Of a stretch of 26,331 bases of DNA, positions 12,328 through 24,523 are shown one piece after another. Position 1 is the stretch's first letter. Every line of letters starts with the position of its first letter. Both the position numbers and the translations under genes were made by a program. The notes below the pieces were generated by a model. The model did not search any database, had not been told where the DNA came from, and saw only the letters and a program-made list of their open reading frames with translations. The DNA comes from a virus: IMG/VR virus record IMGVR_UViG_3300046311_000336, positions 1-26,331 of that record. One strand, given 5' to 3'.

Positions 12328-12350
12328 GCGGCCTTCCAATGGGGGGCCGC
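12328..12350 (+). promoter_or_regulatory. Hairpin covering the ribosome binding site of the Mor-like gene
   Basis: GCGGCCTTCC (12328-12337) can pair along its full length with GGGGGGCCGC (12341-12350), including two T-G pairs, around a 3-nt loop. The right arm is the only purine-rich ribosome site and abuts ATG 12351; an alternative ATG (12339) lies at the loop. This suggests translational control of the activator. Confidence 0.55.
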
Positions 12351-12728
12351 ATGAACTATCCGCGCCCGCCCGCCCATATCATGCCCTATATCGATGCCCT
12401 TGGGGTTGAGACCGCCGTGCGGTTCTTTTTGCATTTTGGCGGTGCGGAACTTTACATCCCGCGCGCCCCAAAAGGCAAAAGTGAGCTGGTGGAAGAATTG
12501 GGGATGGAGGCAGCCCTCGCGCTGTCTGCGCTGGCAGAACGCATGGTGTTGCCACCCCGCATTCCAACCGCCAAACCGTGGCTTGCGCGCTATATGAAGG
12601 TCGTCGAGGGTTATTCAGTGGCCAAGATATCGCGTAAGCTGCACAGTTCTGACGTAGCCGTGCGCCGCTGGATTGCCGGTATGGGCGATCACCGCGACGA
12701 AGCGAGCAACCAGCTGAGCCTGTTTTAG
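12351..12728 (+). CDS. Mor/C-like late transcription activator
   Basis: 125 aa from ATG 12351 (129 aa from ATG 12339). The layout is that of the Mor family: a dimerisation half YIDALGVETAVRFFLHFGGA then LYIPRAPKGKSELVEELG, followed by a helical stretch and a C-terminal HTH (VVEGYSVAKISRKLHSSDVA, VRRWI). In Mu, Mor and C activate middle and late promoters lacking a good -35. The same role fits here: two identical-geometry promoters with a shared box lie at 12760-12807 and 21642-21689. The last five residues, QLSLF, match the consensus sliding-clamp-binding motif. The family call is by pattern only, but position (just before the lysis operon) agrees. Confidence 0.8.
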   Translation: MNYPRPPAHIMPYIDALGVETAVRFFLHFGGAELYIPRAPKGKSELVEELGMEAALALSALAERMVLPPRIPTAKPWLARYMKVVEGYSVAKISRKLHSSDVAVRRWIAGMGDHRDEASNQLSLF

Positions 12729-12759: not shown

Positions 12760-12807
12760 TCCCACACAAAGTTGCGGGTGAAACCCAAAACCGCCCCCGC
12801 CTAGAAT
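12760..12807 (+). promoter_or_regulatory. Late promoter of the lysis/packaging operon (Plys-like)
   Basis: The box TCCCACACA-A-AGTTG-C-GGGTG (12760-12780) is followed, 21 nt later, by a -10 TAGAAT (12802-12807). No -35 is present. A near-identical box and spacing occur before the protease gene (21642-21689). Centred near -44, it sits where Mor binds Mu Pm. The rest of the gap 12729-12846 holds nothing else recognisable. Confidence 0.75.
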
Positions 12808-12846
12808 GACCCTAACGCGCGCGCTTGGCGCAGTCGGGGGTCGGAC

Positions 12847-13764
12847 ATGCAAACCAGCACAAAAGGCATCACCGCCCTTGAACTTGAAGAGGGTGTGGTG
12901 TTGCGGGCGTACCGTGATGTGGTGGGGGTCTGGACTATTGGTCCCGGTCTGACCGCCGCGTCCGGGGTTGTGAAACCAGTTGCTGGCATGGTGATCACCG
13001 CATCAGAGGCGTCACGTTTGTTGCGAGAGGCATTGCGCCGCCGCTATGAGCCTGCCGTTGACACAGCCCTTGAGGCACATGTGACCTTGCCCCAGCAGCA
13101 CGAATTTGACGCAGCGGTGTCGTTTCATTGGAATTTGGGCGCGATTGGCAAGGCCAGTTGGGTGCGTCTGTGGAAGGCGAAGGCGTCTGATTTAGAGATA
13201 CACACCGCCATGCGGTTGTGGCGCAAGGCGGGCGGCAAGGTTTTGCCCGGACTGTTGGCCCGGCGCGACCGTGAAGCGATGATGTTCCTGAAAGGCATCT
13301 ACCGGGAGGGGAACTTGCCTGCAAAACCCGGATTGACCTTTGCCTCATGGGGATTGTCCCTGACCGAGGCAGAGCGTGTGGAGGTCCGAAATGGGTTTTC
13401 CGCGCTTGGATACAATACGGGCATCCGTGCGGACGCGGTCCGTTTGGCGGCGGCCATGCAGTTTCAATCTGACCACGCATTGACCGTCGATGGCATCATC
13501 GGTCGCGCGACCCTGACCGCGTTGCAGCGTCGTCTTGATGTCCGGGCAAAATCCACTGTTCGCACCGTGGCGGTCACCGCAACCGCGCCTGCCGCAGCCA
13601 CCGACCTGACATCGCAGATTGTTGATCTGCCCTATCTTGGACCTGCGCTGTTCGCGGTGGCTGTCCTTTGGATGGGTGCCCTTGCCTACAGTTACCGCGA
13701 TGTGATCGCGGCCAAGGTTTATCGTGCGCTGCCGCGCCTTGCGCGCCTTTTGCGGAGTTTCTGA
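12847..13764 (+). CDS. Endolysin: T4-type lysozyme, peptidoglycan-binding domain, C-terminal membrane anchor
   Basis: 305 aa. Residues ~8-155 are a GH24 lysozyme with the catalytic triad in exact T4 spacing: Glu15 (LELEEG), Asp24 (YRD) and Thr30 (WTIGPG). Later come AAVSFHWNLGAIG and RRDREAMMFLKG. Residues ~185-235 look like a PG_binding_1 repeat (ALGYNTGIRADAV, FQSDHALTVDGIIGRATLTA). A hydrophobic helix near 257-277 (LPYLGPALFAVAVLWMGALA) is followed by a basic tail, so the enzyme may be held in the inner membrane by its C-terminus. No N-terminal signal or SAR helix is seen; release would depend on the holin gene downstream. First gene of the late operon, after GGGGGTCGG. Confidence 0.9.
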   Translation: MQTSTKGITALELEEGVVLRAYRDVVGVWTIGPGLTAASGVVKPVAGMVITASEASRLLREALRRRYEPAVDTALEAHVTLPQQHEFDAAVSFHWNLGAIGKASWVRLWKAKASDLEIHTAMRLWRKAGGKVLPGLLARRDREAMMFLKGIYREGNLPAKPGLTFASWGLSLTEAERVEVRNGFSALGYNTGIRADAVRLAAAMQFQSDHALTVDGIIGRATLTALQRRLDVRAKSTVRTVAVTATAPAAATDLTSQIVDLPYLGPALFAVAVLWMGALAYSYRDVIAAKVYRALPRLARLLRSF

Positions 13765-15236: not shown

Positions 15237-15821
15237 ATGGCCACAGGGCGCGGCAGGCTTTCATCGTTCGACACCTTGCCCACCGAGGCCGAGGCGATTG
15301 TCGCTTGGGCGGCATCCGAGCTTGCCGATCGGGAAAAGTCGCAAAAGGACATCTATGCGGAATTCGTGACGAAGTGTGACGCCCTGATGGCGGACCATCG
15401 CGGCGAGTTGGAATTTGACATTCCCGCCTTCAGTTCGTTCAACCGCTATTCGATCCGCCAAGCCCGTCTGTCCAAACGCCTGAGCGAGACGCGTGAGATT
15501 GTGGCGGTGCTGGCGCAAAAGCACGATGCGCAAGCCTCGGACGATCTGACGATCATCGCGGGCGAGATGATCAAGAGCCTTGTGTTGCATATGTTGGGTG
15601 ACGGCGCGGACGGAGTGGTGCCCAAAGACATCATGCATTTGGCGGGCGCGTTCAAATTGGCCCAACAGGCGCAGAACATGTCGTCGGACCGCAAGACCAA
15701 AGAAGACAAAAAGCTGGAAGCACGGATTGGTGATGCGGTTGATGTGGTGGCCAAGGCCACGGGCATGACCGCCGAAACCGCGCAAGCGATCAAGGCGGAA
15801 ATTTTGGGGGTGCAGACATGA
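15237..15821 (+). CDS. Small terminase-like protein (DUF3486, Mu gp27)
   Basis: 194 aa; ATG 15237 is preferred, with GGGGGA 6 nt upstream (ATG 15231 abuts it). DUF3486 signatures are GRGRLSSFDTLPTEAEAIVA at the N-terminus, then IPAFSSFNRYSIRQARLSKR. The C-terminal half is helical with a charged KTKEDKKLEARI. In Mu-like phages this protein precedes the large terminase and serves as its DNA-recognition partner. Here, unusually, two extra small genes separate it from the large subunit. Confidence 0.85.
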   Translation: MATGRGRLSSFDTLPTEAEAIVAWAASELADREKSQKDIYAEFVTKCDALMADHRGELEFDIPAFSSFNRYSIRQARLSKRLSETREIVAVLAQKHDAQASDDLTIIAGEMIKSLVLHMLGDGADGVVPKDIMHLAGAFKLAQQAQNMSSDRKTKEDKKLEARIGDAVDVVAKATGMTAETAQAIKAEILGVQT

Positions 15822-16147
15822 CGACGCTCATCGGCGCGCGTGAAGCAGAGCGCCCTGTGACGCAAGTTGTGTGTGATCTGAAGCGTTGCTCTGTGCGGTG
15901 CGGCGATAAAAGCTGCATTCCAACGGTTGATGAGTGGCGGCTTTGCCTGCTGCTGTCGGCGCAGCCCGGCCACGTCAAATCCCGCGCCCAGATTTTGGAC
16001 GTGCTTTATCCAACGAATTTTAAGATCGATGAAAGAACCATCGATTCGCATGTGAAGCGCCTTCGCGCGAAATTTCTCGCGACACTCGGTGTGGACCCAA
16101 TTCAAACGCGCTATGGGTTCGGGTATTCTTGGAACGATCAGCCATGA
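15818..16147 (+). CDS. Stand-alone OmpR/PhoB-type winged-helix protein, copy 1
   Basis: 109 aa with no receiver domain. Residues ~25-105 fit the response-regulator effector fold: VDEWRLCLLLSAQPGHVKSR, QILDVLYP, DERTIDSHVKRLRAKF, then the wing ending VDPIQTRYGFGYSWN. The N-terminal part has Cys19, Cys24, Cys28 and Cys33, possibly a metal or redox site, absent from copy 2. It is about half identical to the next gene over the shared domain, so the pair arose by tandem duplication. Location between TerS and TerL is odd. It may regulate late genes or bind packaging DNA; both are guesses. Confidence 0.8.
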   Translation: MTTLIGAREAERPVTQVVCDLKRCSVRCGDKSCIPTVDEWRLCLLLSAQPGHVKSRAQILDVLYPTNFKIDERTIDSHVKRLRAKFLATLGVDPIQTRYGFGYSWNDQP

Positions 16148-16455
16148 GTGCGCCCTTGGAAAGTCGTCCAGGTATTTGGGTCGATGCAGATCAGTTTGTT
16201 GTCCGGTATGGCGACAAAAGCATTGAACTGACGAAATCAGAGTTCCCGCTGTGTCGACTTCTGGCATCACGTCCGGGCCACATCAAATCCACGGCAGCGA
16301 TTCTGAACGTGTTGACCCCGGTCTATGAGAAGGCAAATGAGACGAGTGTCACAGGCCACGTCAAACGCCTGCGCCAGAAATTTCGCGCGTCTTTGGGGGT
16401 TGACCCGATCAAGACGCATCATGGCGAAGGCTATTCTTGGAATGGTGCCGCATGA
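16144..16455 (+). CDS. Stand-alone OmpR/PhoB-type winged-helix protein, copy 2
   Basis: 103 aa from ATG 16144, overlapping copy 1's stop by 4 nt. Same fold: VRYGDKSIELTKSEFPLCRL, LASRPGHIKSTAAILNVL, recognition helix region NETSVTGHVKRLRQKF, wing VDPIKTHHGEGYSWNG. The sequence ELTKSEFPLCRLLASRPG is close to canonical response regulators, but no phospho-acceptor domain is present. The paralogues share HVKRLRxKF and SLGVDPI/TLGVDPI, so they may bind related sites or form heterodimers. Followed directly by the large terminase. Confidence 0.8.
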   Translation: MSAPLESRPGIWVDADQFVVRYGDKSIELTKSEFPLCRLLASRPGHIKSTAAILNVLTPVYEKANETSVTGHVKRLRQKFRASLGVDPIKTHHGEGYSWNGAA

Positions 16456-21092: not shown

Positions 21093-21611
21093 ATGTTTAC
21101 CGTCGAACTCAAGGCCGAGGCCGCCACTGCCGCACTGACCCGCGCGGCCACCCTTATGGGCGACATGCGGCCTGTCCTGGACTCCATCGGGGAAATCCTC
21201 GTCCGGTCGACCAAAGTGCGATTCGGCCAAGGCAAGGCCCCTGATGGCACGGCGTGGGCCGCCAAATCCCAGACCACGCTGGAGCGTTACGGGTCGCGCA
21301 AGTCAAACCGGGTTGATATTCGCCCGCTGTTTGGTCCGAGCGGGCGCTTGAACCAAGATATTTTCCACGAAACAGGCGCCGATTTTGTCGAAGTTGGGTC
21401 ATCGCGGATCTATGCGGCAGCCATGCAATTTGGCGCGGCCAAAGGGTCCTTCGGGGCCTATAGCGGCGTCAACAAGAACGGACACGCCTTTGCGGGGTCA
21501 GCCCCTTGGGGCAATATCCCCGCCCGGCCGTTTTTGGGGGTATCCAGTGAGGATGAGACGAATATCCTCGCCGAAATCGCCGAAGCAATTTCGGATGCAC
21601 TTGGCACCTGA
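21093..21611 (+). CDS. Virion morphogenesis protein gpG-like
   Basis: 172 aa; matches the phage virion morphogenesis (Mu gpG) family, needed for head-tail joining. Pattern: an N-terminal VELKAEAATAALTRAATLMG, DSIGEILVRSTKVRFGQGKA, PDGTAWAAKSQTTLERYG, GRLNQDIFHETGADFVEVGS, IYAAAMQFGAAKGSF, and the C-terminal IPARPFLGVSSEDET. Good ribosome site GAGAGGAGAG upstream. Last gene before the second late promoter. Confidence 0.9.
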   Translation: MFTVELKAEAATAALTRAATLMGDMRPVLDSIGEILVRSTKVRFGQGKAPDGTAWAAKSQTTLERYGSRKSNRVDIRPLFGPSGRLNQDIFHETGADFVEVGSSRIYAAAMQFGAAKGSFGAYSGVNKNGHAFAGSAPWGNIPARPFLGVSSEDETNILAEIAEAISDALGT

Positions 21612-21641: not shown

Positions 21642-21689
21642 TCCCACACATAGTTGAGGGTGTTTTGACCCCTTGCTTGGCCCGATATT
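21642..21689 (+). promoter_or_regulatory. Second late promoter (PI-like)
   Basis: The box TCCCACACA-T-AGTTG-A-GGGTG (21642-21662) matches the one at 12760-12780 in 19/21 positions. A -10-like GATATT (21684-21689) starts exactly 22 nt after the box end, as in the first promoter. No -35 is present. Mu has a C-dependent promoter PI at this same place, before gene I. The predicted start of transcription is at or next to the ATG at 21696. Confidence 0.75.
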
Positions 21690-21695
21690 GGGCGC

Positions 21696-22760
21696 ATGAA
21701 GCAAAACCTTAATCCTCTTCTAGTTTTGGCTGCGGCGCAGGGCCTGCCTGATGGGCCCAATGTGCCTGAGTGGGTGCATTTACTGCCCACAGCCAAAGGC
21801 GCGATCCTGACCTTTGACGGGCGCGGGCCTTACACAGTCGTGAATGCAGAAGCGGTGATTGCAAATTCACTGCGCGATCCGCGCGGCATTCCAATCGACG
21901 AAAACCACAGCACCAATCTGGCAGCACCAGAAGGCCGCGAAGCCCCGGCACGTGGCTGGGTTGCGCAGATGGAAGCGCGTGCTGACGGTATCTGGGGCCG
22001 TGTCGATTGGACCGAAGCGGGCCGCGCCTTGGTTGGCGACCGTGCGTATCGCGGCTTGTCGCCGGTGATCTTGCTGCAGGCGGACGCAAAAACAGTTTTC
22101 TCAATCACGGCGGCCAGTCTGGTCAACAAACCAAACCTGCGAGACCTCGTCTCGCTTAACGCGGAGACGCATGCAATGACGCTCATGGAGCAAATTCTAA
22201 AGGCCCTCGGATTGGCTGCTGGTGCCACCGATGCGGAGATCATCGCCGCCTGCAAGGCCACCAAGCCTGCGGCTGACCCCAAGCCGGAACTGCAATCCGC
22301 GCTGGTTGAAATCGGTGTGGCTTTGGGCATTGACGGCACCAACACCGCCGCAATCGTCGCGGCGGTCAAAGGCAAGACTGTCGAGAGTGGCTCTCTGGTG
22401 GCCTTGCAGGCAGAAAACACCGCCCTCGCAGGCCGGGTTGCCACGATGGAGACCGCGAGCAAGCGTGCAGCATCCGAGGCGTTTGTTGACGCGGCCATTG
22501 CTGCAAAGCGGGCTGGTCTGAATGCAACCACCCGCGAAACCTACATCGCCCTGCATATGGAGCAGCCTGCAATGGCTGAAACCATGATCAAGGGCATGCC
22601 CTTGATGGGCCCGTCTGGTCTGACGGCAGCGCCGCCAGCTGCGGACGGAACCGTCACCAGTCTGAACGCCGAGCAGGCGGCAGTAGCCACCCAGCTGGGG
22701 ATTTCCAAAGAAACCTACCTCGCGACGCTGCAAGCGGACCGCGCGAACAAGGGAGTTTGA
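21696..22760 (+). CDS. Mu gpI-like head protease with C-terminal scaffold
   Basis: 354 aa; the N-terminal half is a Mu-like I protein (prohead protease): LPTAKGAILTFDGRGPYTVV, IPIDENHSTNLAAPEGREAP, RGWVAQMEARADGIWGRVDW, YRGLSPVILLQADAKTVFSI. His71 and Ser122 are the plausible catalytic pair (inference). Residues ~160 on form a helical scaffold, as Mu gpZ, beginning MTLMEQILKALGL. No Shine-Dalgarno precedes ATG 21696, and the late promoter would start transcription there, so a leaderless message is possible. Followed closely by the decoration-like gene. Confidence 0.9.
   Translation: MKQNLNPLLVLAAAQGLPDGPNVPEWVHLLPTAKGAILTFDGRGPYTVVNAEAVIANSLRDPRGIPIDENHSTNLAAPEGREAPARGWVAQMEARADGIWGRVDWTEAGRALVGDRAYRGLSPVILLQADAKTVFSITAASLVNKPNLRDLVSLNAETHAMTLMEQILKALGLAAGATDAEIIAACKATKPAADPKPELQSALVEIGVALGIDGTNTAAIVAAVKGKTVESGSLVALQAENTALAGRVATMETASKRAASEAFVDAAIAAKRAGLNATTRETYIALHMEQPAMAETMIKGMPLMGPSGLTAAPPAADGTVTSLNAEQAAVATQLGISKETYLATLQADRANKGV
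22176..22760 (+). CDS. Scaffold protein from internal in-frame start
   Basis: An in-frame ATG at 22176 is preceded 9 nt upstream by GGAG (22163-22166). It would make a 194-aa C-terminal product starting MTLMEQILKALGLAAG. Mu makes its scaffold gpZ from the 3' part of gene I in just this way, so separate scaffold synthesis is likely. Confidence 0.6.
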   Translation: MTLMEQILKALGLAAGATDAEIIAACKATKPAADPKPELQSALVEIGVALGIDGTNTAAIVAAVKGKTVESGSLVALQAENTALAGRVATMETASKRAASEAFVDAAIAAKRAGLNATTRETYIALHMEQPAMAETMIKGMPLMGPSGLTAAPPAADGTVTSLNAEQAAVATQLGISKETYLATLQADRANKGV

Positions 22761-24199: not shown

Positions 24200-24523
24200 A
24201 TGGCACGTACCAAACCAAAAGCAGAGGTTGCAACGCAGACCCCGTCCAAAGGCCAGTCTGTCAAAAATGTTGATGGCGTCGTGGTGATTGGCCCGCAAAA
24301 AGGTCGCTGGCGCATTGGCCGTCATTTTGGCCCCGGTGAAACCTATATCGCGGCCTCTGAGTTGAACGAGACCCAGATCGCGGCGCTGCAGGCGGACGCT
24401 GAGCTGGTGGTTATTGTCGGTCACCTTGTTGAGCAGGTTGCCGTAGAGCCCGAGCCGCAGCCTGTGCCCGAGCCGCAGCCTGCGCCCGAGCCGGTCGCCG
24501 ACCCGGCCCCGCCGAACGCATAA
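24200..24523 (+). CDS. Mu gp35-like small protein with Pro/Glu-rich tail
   Basis: 107 aa after AAAGGAG. The middle (KNVDGVVVIGPQKGRWRIGR, HFGPGETYIAASELNETQIA, ALQADAELVVI) resembles the FluMu/HI1506-like domain of the protein that follows gpT in Mu-like phages. The N-terminus is basic, and the C-terminus is a PEPQP repeat run (about residues 77-100). Unknown head or neck function. Confidence 0.65.
   Translation: MARTKPKAEVATQTPSKGQSVKNVDGVVVIGPQKGRWRIGRHFGPGETYIAASELNETQIAALQADAELVVIVGHLVEQVAVEPEPQPVPEPQPAPEPVADPAPPNA

Follow-up and report, generated by a model that had tools for sequence, protein, structure and literature searches.

The window analysed here, a stretch of 26,331 bases that makes up the whole IMG/VR record, probably represents part of a Mu-like phage. 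It carries genes for a Mu-type transposase, a ParB-like protein, GemA, a 129-aa activator, lysozyme, portal, neck, an I-type protease and capsid. The activator gene (12339–12728) encodes a protein of the Mor/C type, as judged from a phrog_836 match and a predicted helix-turn-helix (HTH), and its 129-aa product is the predicted binder of two boxes. Box 1 (12760–12780; 16-bp dyad core 12762–12777), a candidate activator site, is followed by the −10 hexamer TAGAAT (12802–12807) of putative late promoter 1, with a predicted transcription start near 12814, and then by the lysozyme gene as the Plys-type first late gene (12847–13764; PF00959 Phage_lysozyme, E = 1.6e-25). Box 2 (21642–21662; dyad core 21644–21659), the candidate activator site of late promoter 2, is followed after 22 nt by the −10 hexamer GATATT (21684–21689) and a six-base gap (21690–21695). 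Directly behind this gap, the first gene of late block 2 encodes a Mu I-type capsid maturation protease (21696–22760; PF10123 Mu-like_Pro, E = 8.2e-43; phrog_328, E = 1.6e-61), the A of whose start codon is the predicted +1. All of these features are on the plus strand. The window also contains two overlapping tandem OmpR-type winged-helix genes (15818–16147 and 16129–16455; Trans_reg_C) without receiver domains.

The original prediction held that box 1 (TCCCACACAAAGTTGCGGGTG) recurs as box 2 (TCCCACACATAGTTGAGGGTG) with 19/21 identity and that TAGAAT and GATATT each start 22 nt past the end of their box, and both figures proved exact. Its claim that neither promoter has a −35 element was borne out for copy 2, where a simple scan found none, but not entirely for copy 1, where a weak GTGAAA (4/6) lies 18 bp upstream of TAGAAT. 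With up to three mismatches allowed, the box was present at these two places only on either strand of the 26 kb window, while 100 dinucleotide-preserving shuffles gave 0 matches (mean 0.00). Both copies fit the dyad CCCnCAnnnnnnTGnGGG, and the distance from the end of GATATT to the ATG at 21696 is exactly 6 nt. A separate middle-promoter box was not found.

For the comparative analysis, viral and bacterial genome contigs were searched for relatives of the window activator, giving ∼110 loci (63 viral and 46 genome), mainly from Rhodobacterales, and annotated phages including RC1, RS1 and vB_ThpS-P1 were added. We refer to the stretch after the activator gene as region A and to the stretch before the protease gene as region B. 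The original prediction had made its reading depend on conservation of the box in related phages, and this conservation was indeed observed: among the 30 distinct phages with both places present, a dyad box preceded the protease in 30/30 and the lysozyme in nearly all, with the qualification that co-occurrence of activator and box is partly by construction, since the activator was the search bait. Usually, the lysozyme-side box of these 30 phages was immediately 3′ of the activator gene. A profile built from the relatives' boxes scored ≥12 bits in 56/85 distinct A regions and 28/30 B regions, and the remaining two B regions were also positive, ThpS-P1 having its own version of the box and L053 having it just beyond the scanned stretch. 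The 29/85 A regions missed by this general profile comprised six with a box before lysozyme and two with the ThpS-type version, and the rest included distant or differently arranged loci. In the six (L034, L038, L043, L047, L101 and L106), 1.3–2.7 kb separate activator and lysozyme; the box was found 53–77 nt before lysozyme and none followed the activator gene. The box thus stays with lysozyme rather than with the end of the activator gene, which favours a promoter element over a terminator of the activator operon.

Box versions were specific to each phage and their distance to the −10 hexamer was fixed. The best 20-mer common to regions A and B reached at least 17/20 in 22/30 phages, a score attained by 1/561 random same-phage stretches. 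Pairs from within a phage scored higher than cross-phage pairs (Mann–Whitney p = 9.8e-9) and higher than shuffles (p = 1.7e-15); since the match is far better within phages than between them, both copies of the box evolve together. Such private versions are exemplified by CCCGCAAACCCTTGCGGGTG, present twice in L007, CCTACACACCGTTGTAGG in L028, L029 and L082, TCCACACATCGTTGCGGGCG in RC1 and CCAACTTGTTGCGCATG in ThpS-P1. Phages taken as outgroups, whose activators are of other versions, had private boxes of their own in these two positions, with A/B identities of 20/20 for RcapMu and 18/20 for RhkS_P1 as well as for LPB1 and D3112. No common box was detected near the activator of the Sinorhizobium phages Aussie and StopSmel or the Microcystis phage Mwe-Yong1 (32%, 32% and 28% identity, respectively). 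A search of viral contigs with the exact window box pattern returned near-identical phages and seemingly unrelated matches only.

Across these phages, the box contains a 16-bp dyad composed of 5-bp arms and a 6-bp spacer. The arms are the best-conserved part of this dyad and are complementary at four or five of their five pairs in 75/84 sites; the spacer is 61% G+C. When sites were aligned on the box, no signal between box and gene was stronger than a −10 hexamer of the form nAnnnT, spanning positions +22 to +27 from the box end: an A at +23 and a T at +27 were each present in 96% of 28 B sites, and in 66% and 68%, respectively, of 56 A sites. The centre of the box had been placed near −44, in agreement with the −44.5 that we obtain if +1 is taken as the protease ATG. 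The Mor site at Mu Pm, which takes a dimer, is also a 16-bp element with two 5-bp inverted repeats and a G/C-rich 6-bp spacer; it replaces the −35 element and is centred at −43.5, that is, about −44 (PMC4390567). Dyad arms, G/C-rich spacer and position therefore all follow the layout of a Mor-type promoter, the weak −35-like GTGAAA being confined to copy 1. Placement agrees with Mu as well: in the window and in its relatives the boxes precede lysozyme and the I protease, the same gene boundaries as those of Mu Plys and PI (PMC4461284), as had been claimed.

In 29 phages in which the −10 hexamer of promoter 2 could be related to the protease ATG, the intervening distance was 6 nt in 21, 7 nt in 7 and 5 nt in 1; L053 fits too, with an ATG close behind the hexamer GAATAT. 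The last base of a −10 element is usually at −7, so that a gap of 5–7 nt would put +1 on, or at most one base from, the A of the protease ATG. A Shine–Dalgarno (SD)-like motif was present before the protease in 1/29 phages, compared with 11/12 for the major capsid gene and 17/27 for the neck gene as controls, and a −10 hexamer occupied the corresponding place in 28/29, 0/12 and 3/27 cases, respectively. Conservation in the N-terminal alignment of the protease begins close to the ATG. The gene upstream of the protease in the window ends at 21611, and the resulting gap of 84 nt makes translational coupling unlikely. The position of the −10 hexamer and the absence of an SD motif strongly suggest that the late mRNA of the protease and capsid operon is leaderless, a prediction made from sequence.

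A further copy of the box had been expected before tail or modification genes. The window itself ends upstream of the tail genes. In most of the relatives with long records the box occurs twice, as it does in RC1 and ThpS-P1, where no further copies were found; a clear third copy was seen in one relative. It is located in the L057 phage on the minus strand (L125 1192–1211; G017 2687–2706), before a tail-region ORF and 21 nt before CACTTC, and has the private CTAGCGG variant of the other two boxes in that phage. Weak third box matches were also seen in G023. The L061 phage has an opposite-strand box-like site in its early region (L126 1039–1058; G020 24338–24357), which is separated from CATGCT by a 20-nt rather than a 21-nt gap.

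The profile phrog_836, annotated as 'late transcriptional activator', matched the window protein (E = 1.6e-18) as well as Mu Mor (1.2e-10), Mu C (2.1e-11) and the corresponding proteins of RcapMu (6.5e-28) and LPB1 (6.6e-47), and by this profile homology we assign the window protein to the Mor/C family. Against the Pfam model PF08765 (Mor) it scored 14 bits, compared with a curated cut-off of 24.9, and its relatives gave no significant match; because the phrog_836 link holds, this may be a matter of sensitivity. An hhalign comparison of the family profile with single Mu Mor and C sequences was weak. The protein has a predicted C-terminal HTH (helices 79–90, 94–101 and 105–114), for which a fold search returned generic HTH DNA-binding domains (Z about 5–6), the solved structure of Mor not being among the matches listed. 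In vB_ThpS-P1, we found a Mor/C-type activator at L018 11995–12384 (ALF02072.1; phrog_836, 1.4e-19). The genome paper of this phage states that Mor is absent (PMC5488378), a published claim that the match corrects.

RcapMu and the L080 prophage are both from Rhodobacter capsulatus and differ in their boxes, so that the binder is most likely encoded by the phage and not by the host. Each phage with a diverged activator also has a box pair of its own. A mutual-information comparison of activator columns with box bases, covering 93 sites in 64 phages (with the A site of ThpS-P1 placed a few bases off), was dominated by phylogeny, its top scores were not enriched in the HTH, and it carries no weight in our reading. 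Two associations are suggestive only: L071 and L123, in which a DV of the recognition helix is changed to DK or DN, both have GTGCGG instead of TTGCGG, and activators with xPTVxR go with CCTACACACCGTTGTAGG boxes.

The original reading of the boxes as activator sites stands as far as conservation at fixed geometry, the adjoining Mor/C-type gene and the Mor-site layout are concerned, while the further copies it called for are mostly absent. We put the probability at roughly 0.87 that the two boxes are operators of two late promoters, bound by a dimer of the Mor/C-type activator encoded at 12339–12728, and that the mRNA of promoter 2 is leaderless. In such a mechanism, the activator dimer would bind the dyad, whose centre lies some 44 bp 5′ of the start, substitute there for the missing −35 element and either recruit or open host RNA polymerase at the −10 hexamer. 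Promoter 1 would then give rise to an mRNA for lysis, packaging and portal functions, and promoter 2 to one for protease, capsid and tail, whose first base would be the A of the protease AUG, so that it would be translated without a leader. Binding, activation, start points and leaderless translation are what we infer here; the box pairs, the dyad, the fixed spacings to the −10 hexamer and from there to the ATG, the −10 enrichment, the lack of an SD motif and the joint evolution of the two copies were read directly.

An alternative is that the boxes are intrinsic terminators of the early and head operons, their distance to the −10 hexamer being incidental. Both places do come after a gene end, several relatives have a perfect dyad followed by T runs, RcapMu carries CCCCCGGACCTGTGTCCGGGGGTTTT at both places, and Mu has TransTermHP terminator annotations at Pm and Plys as well. 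However, even loose terminator criteria selected only 15/57 A and 8/29 B sites. Neither window copy combines a stable G/C-rich hairpin with a T run: the hairpins are weak (−5.1 kcal/mol for copy 1, which has no T run, and −3.3 kcal/mol for copy 2), a terminator scan returned no terminator-like site at either box, and the hairpins of ThpS-P1 are poorer still. Terminator function also leaves the conserved loop bases and the same private sequence in both copies unexplained, as it does the box 53–77 nt before lysozyme even when this is 1.3–2.7 kb away from the activator gene. We therefore consider it very improbable that the boxes are terminators and nothing else. A dual role in some relatives, as a DNA operator for the activator and as an RNA terminator insulating the late promoter from upstream transcripts, is unlikely to a lesser degree: perfect dyads with T runs occur in some of the Rhodobacterales set as well as in RcapMu, and predicted terminators overlap Mor- and C-dependent promoters in Mu, but the window, with its weak hairpins, does not need such a role.

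The operators might also be bound by another regulator of the phage, for example the OmpR-type winged-helix proteins encoded at 15818–16455, or by a host factor. Two genes with a Trans_reg_C domain do lie within the first late block, but a check of the other 29 phages revealed neither of them, and the different boxes of the R. capsulatus phages argue against a host protein, which makes another binder very improbable. GemA is near-universal among the phages examined; it is not known as a promoter activator. The two copies might instead be without function, having arisen by recent duplication or resembling each other by chance. This would agree with the presence of only two copies in the window, but is refuted for practical purposes by pairs that are kept across strongly diverged phages while their sequences differ from phage to phage.

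Operators of two activator-dependent late promoters thus remain our preferred reading, and Mu offers the closest comparison. Like Mu Mor, the window activator has 129 aa and is encoded downstream of GemA, although its position upstream of lys matches that of Mu C as much as that of Mor. The site sequence differs from that at Pm, and here one activator apparently serves two late promoters. Mu also has the late promoters PP and Pmom. Going by the oligo design in PMC4461284, transcription from Mu PI starts some 25 nt upstream of the I ATG, for which a ribosome-binding site is annotated, whereas the −10 hexamer of the window ends 6 nt before the ATG and no SD motif is present. By our crude measure, the A and B regions of Mu share at most 15/20, which is not above shuffles.

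The Pseudomonas phages D3112 and LPB1 (Casadabanvirus) also have a phrog_836 activator, their own box common to both late starts and a −10 hexamer 6 nt before an ATG at both late starts. In contrast to the window, their box (CGTTGAACCCCTTCC..TAA) is unrelated and both late starts look leaderless. In LPB1 (L131, about 1498) and D3112 (L134, about 1750), the first late promoter is immediately followed by an unannotated ORF (MSTSSPPTSLRSPRDYAAAIL...) with a leaderless-type start. RcapMu likewise has a phrog_836 activator, whose annotation notes a similarity to Mu gp21 (C), and an identical box at both places, but differs in its perfect long hairpin with a T run and in a protease that is not obviously leaderless. 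About 28 identical bases (CCCCCGGACCTGTGTCCGGGGGTTTTGC) at the two late starts of RcapMu (L136 5947–5975 and just upstream of L137 1040) have the shape of a textbook terminator.

Extended to a large group of Mu-like siphophages, those of Rhodobacterales and the D3112-like phages of Pseudomonas with their unrelated boxes, the comparison points, with somewhat better than even confidence, to a two-step rather than a three-step Mu cascade, in which one Mor/C-type activator would fire both late promoters through a fast-evolving private pair of operators and the capsid operon would be leaderless by promoter design. Mor/C-dependent promoters are already known as a kind; the papers searched gave no precedent for the operator set, for a late switch apparently run by a single activator or for the predicted leaderless capsid operon. 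The open-access literature searched, beyond which most subscription papers lie, contained no prior account of these boxes. Work on the textbook activators Mor and C has essentially been confined to a single phage, Mu. With dozens of activator/operator pairs that have diverged and whose site is directly readable, specificity and its evolution would become testable by swaps, and late start points may be predictable to the base in many prophages. A leaderless mRNA of the capsid operon, if true, would matter for the translation of capsid genes at late stages of infection.

The slot upstream of late promoter 2 is occupied by variable small genes, as seen at L016 21474–23146 and in the gap between neck and protease in L025, L029 and L061. 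In D3112, the same slot holds the anti-CRISPR gene AcrF2 (L134 9928–10200), which makes the genes in the alphaproteobacterial slot candidates for anti-defence functions.
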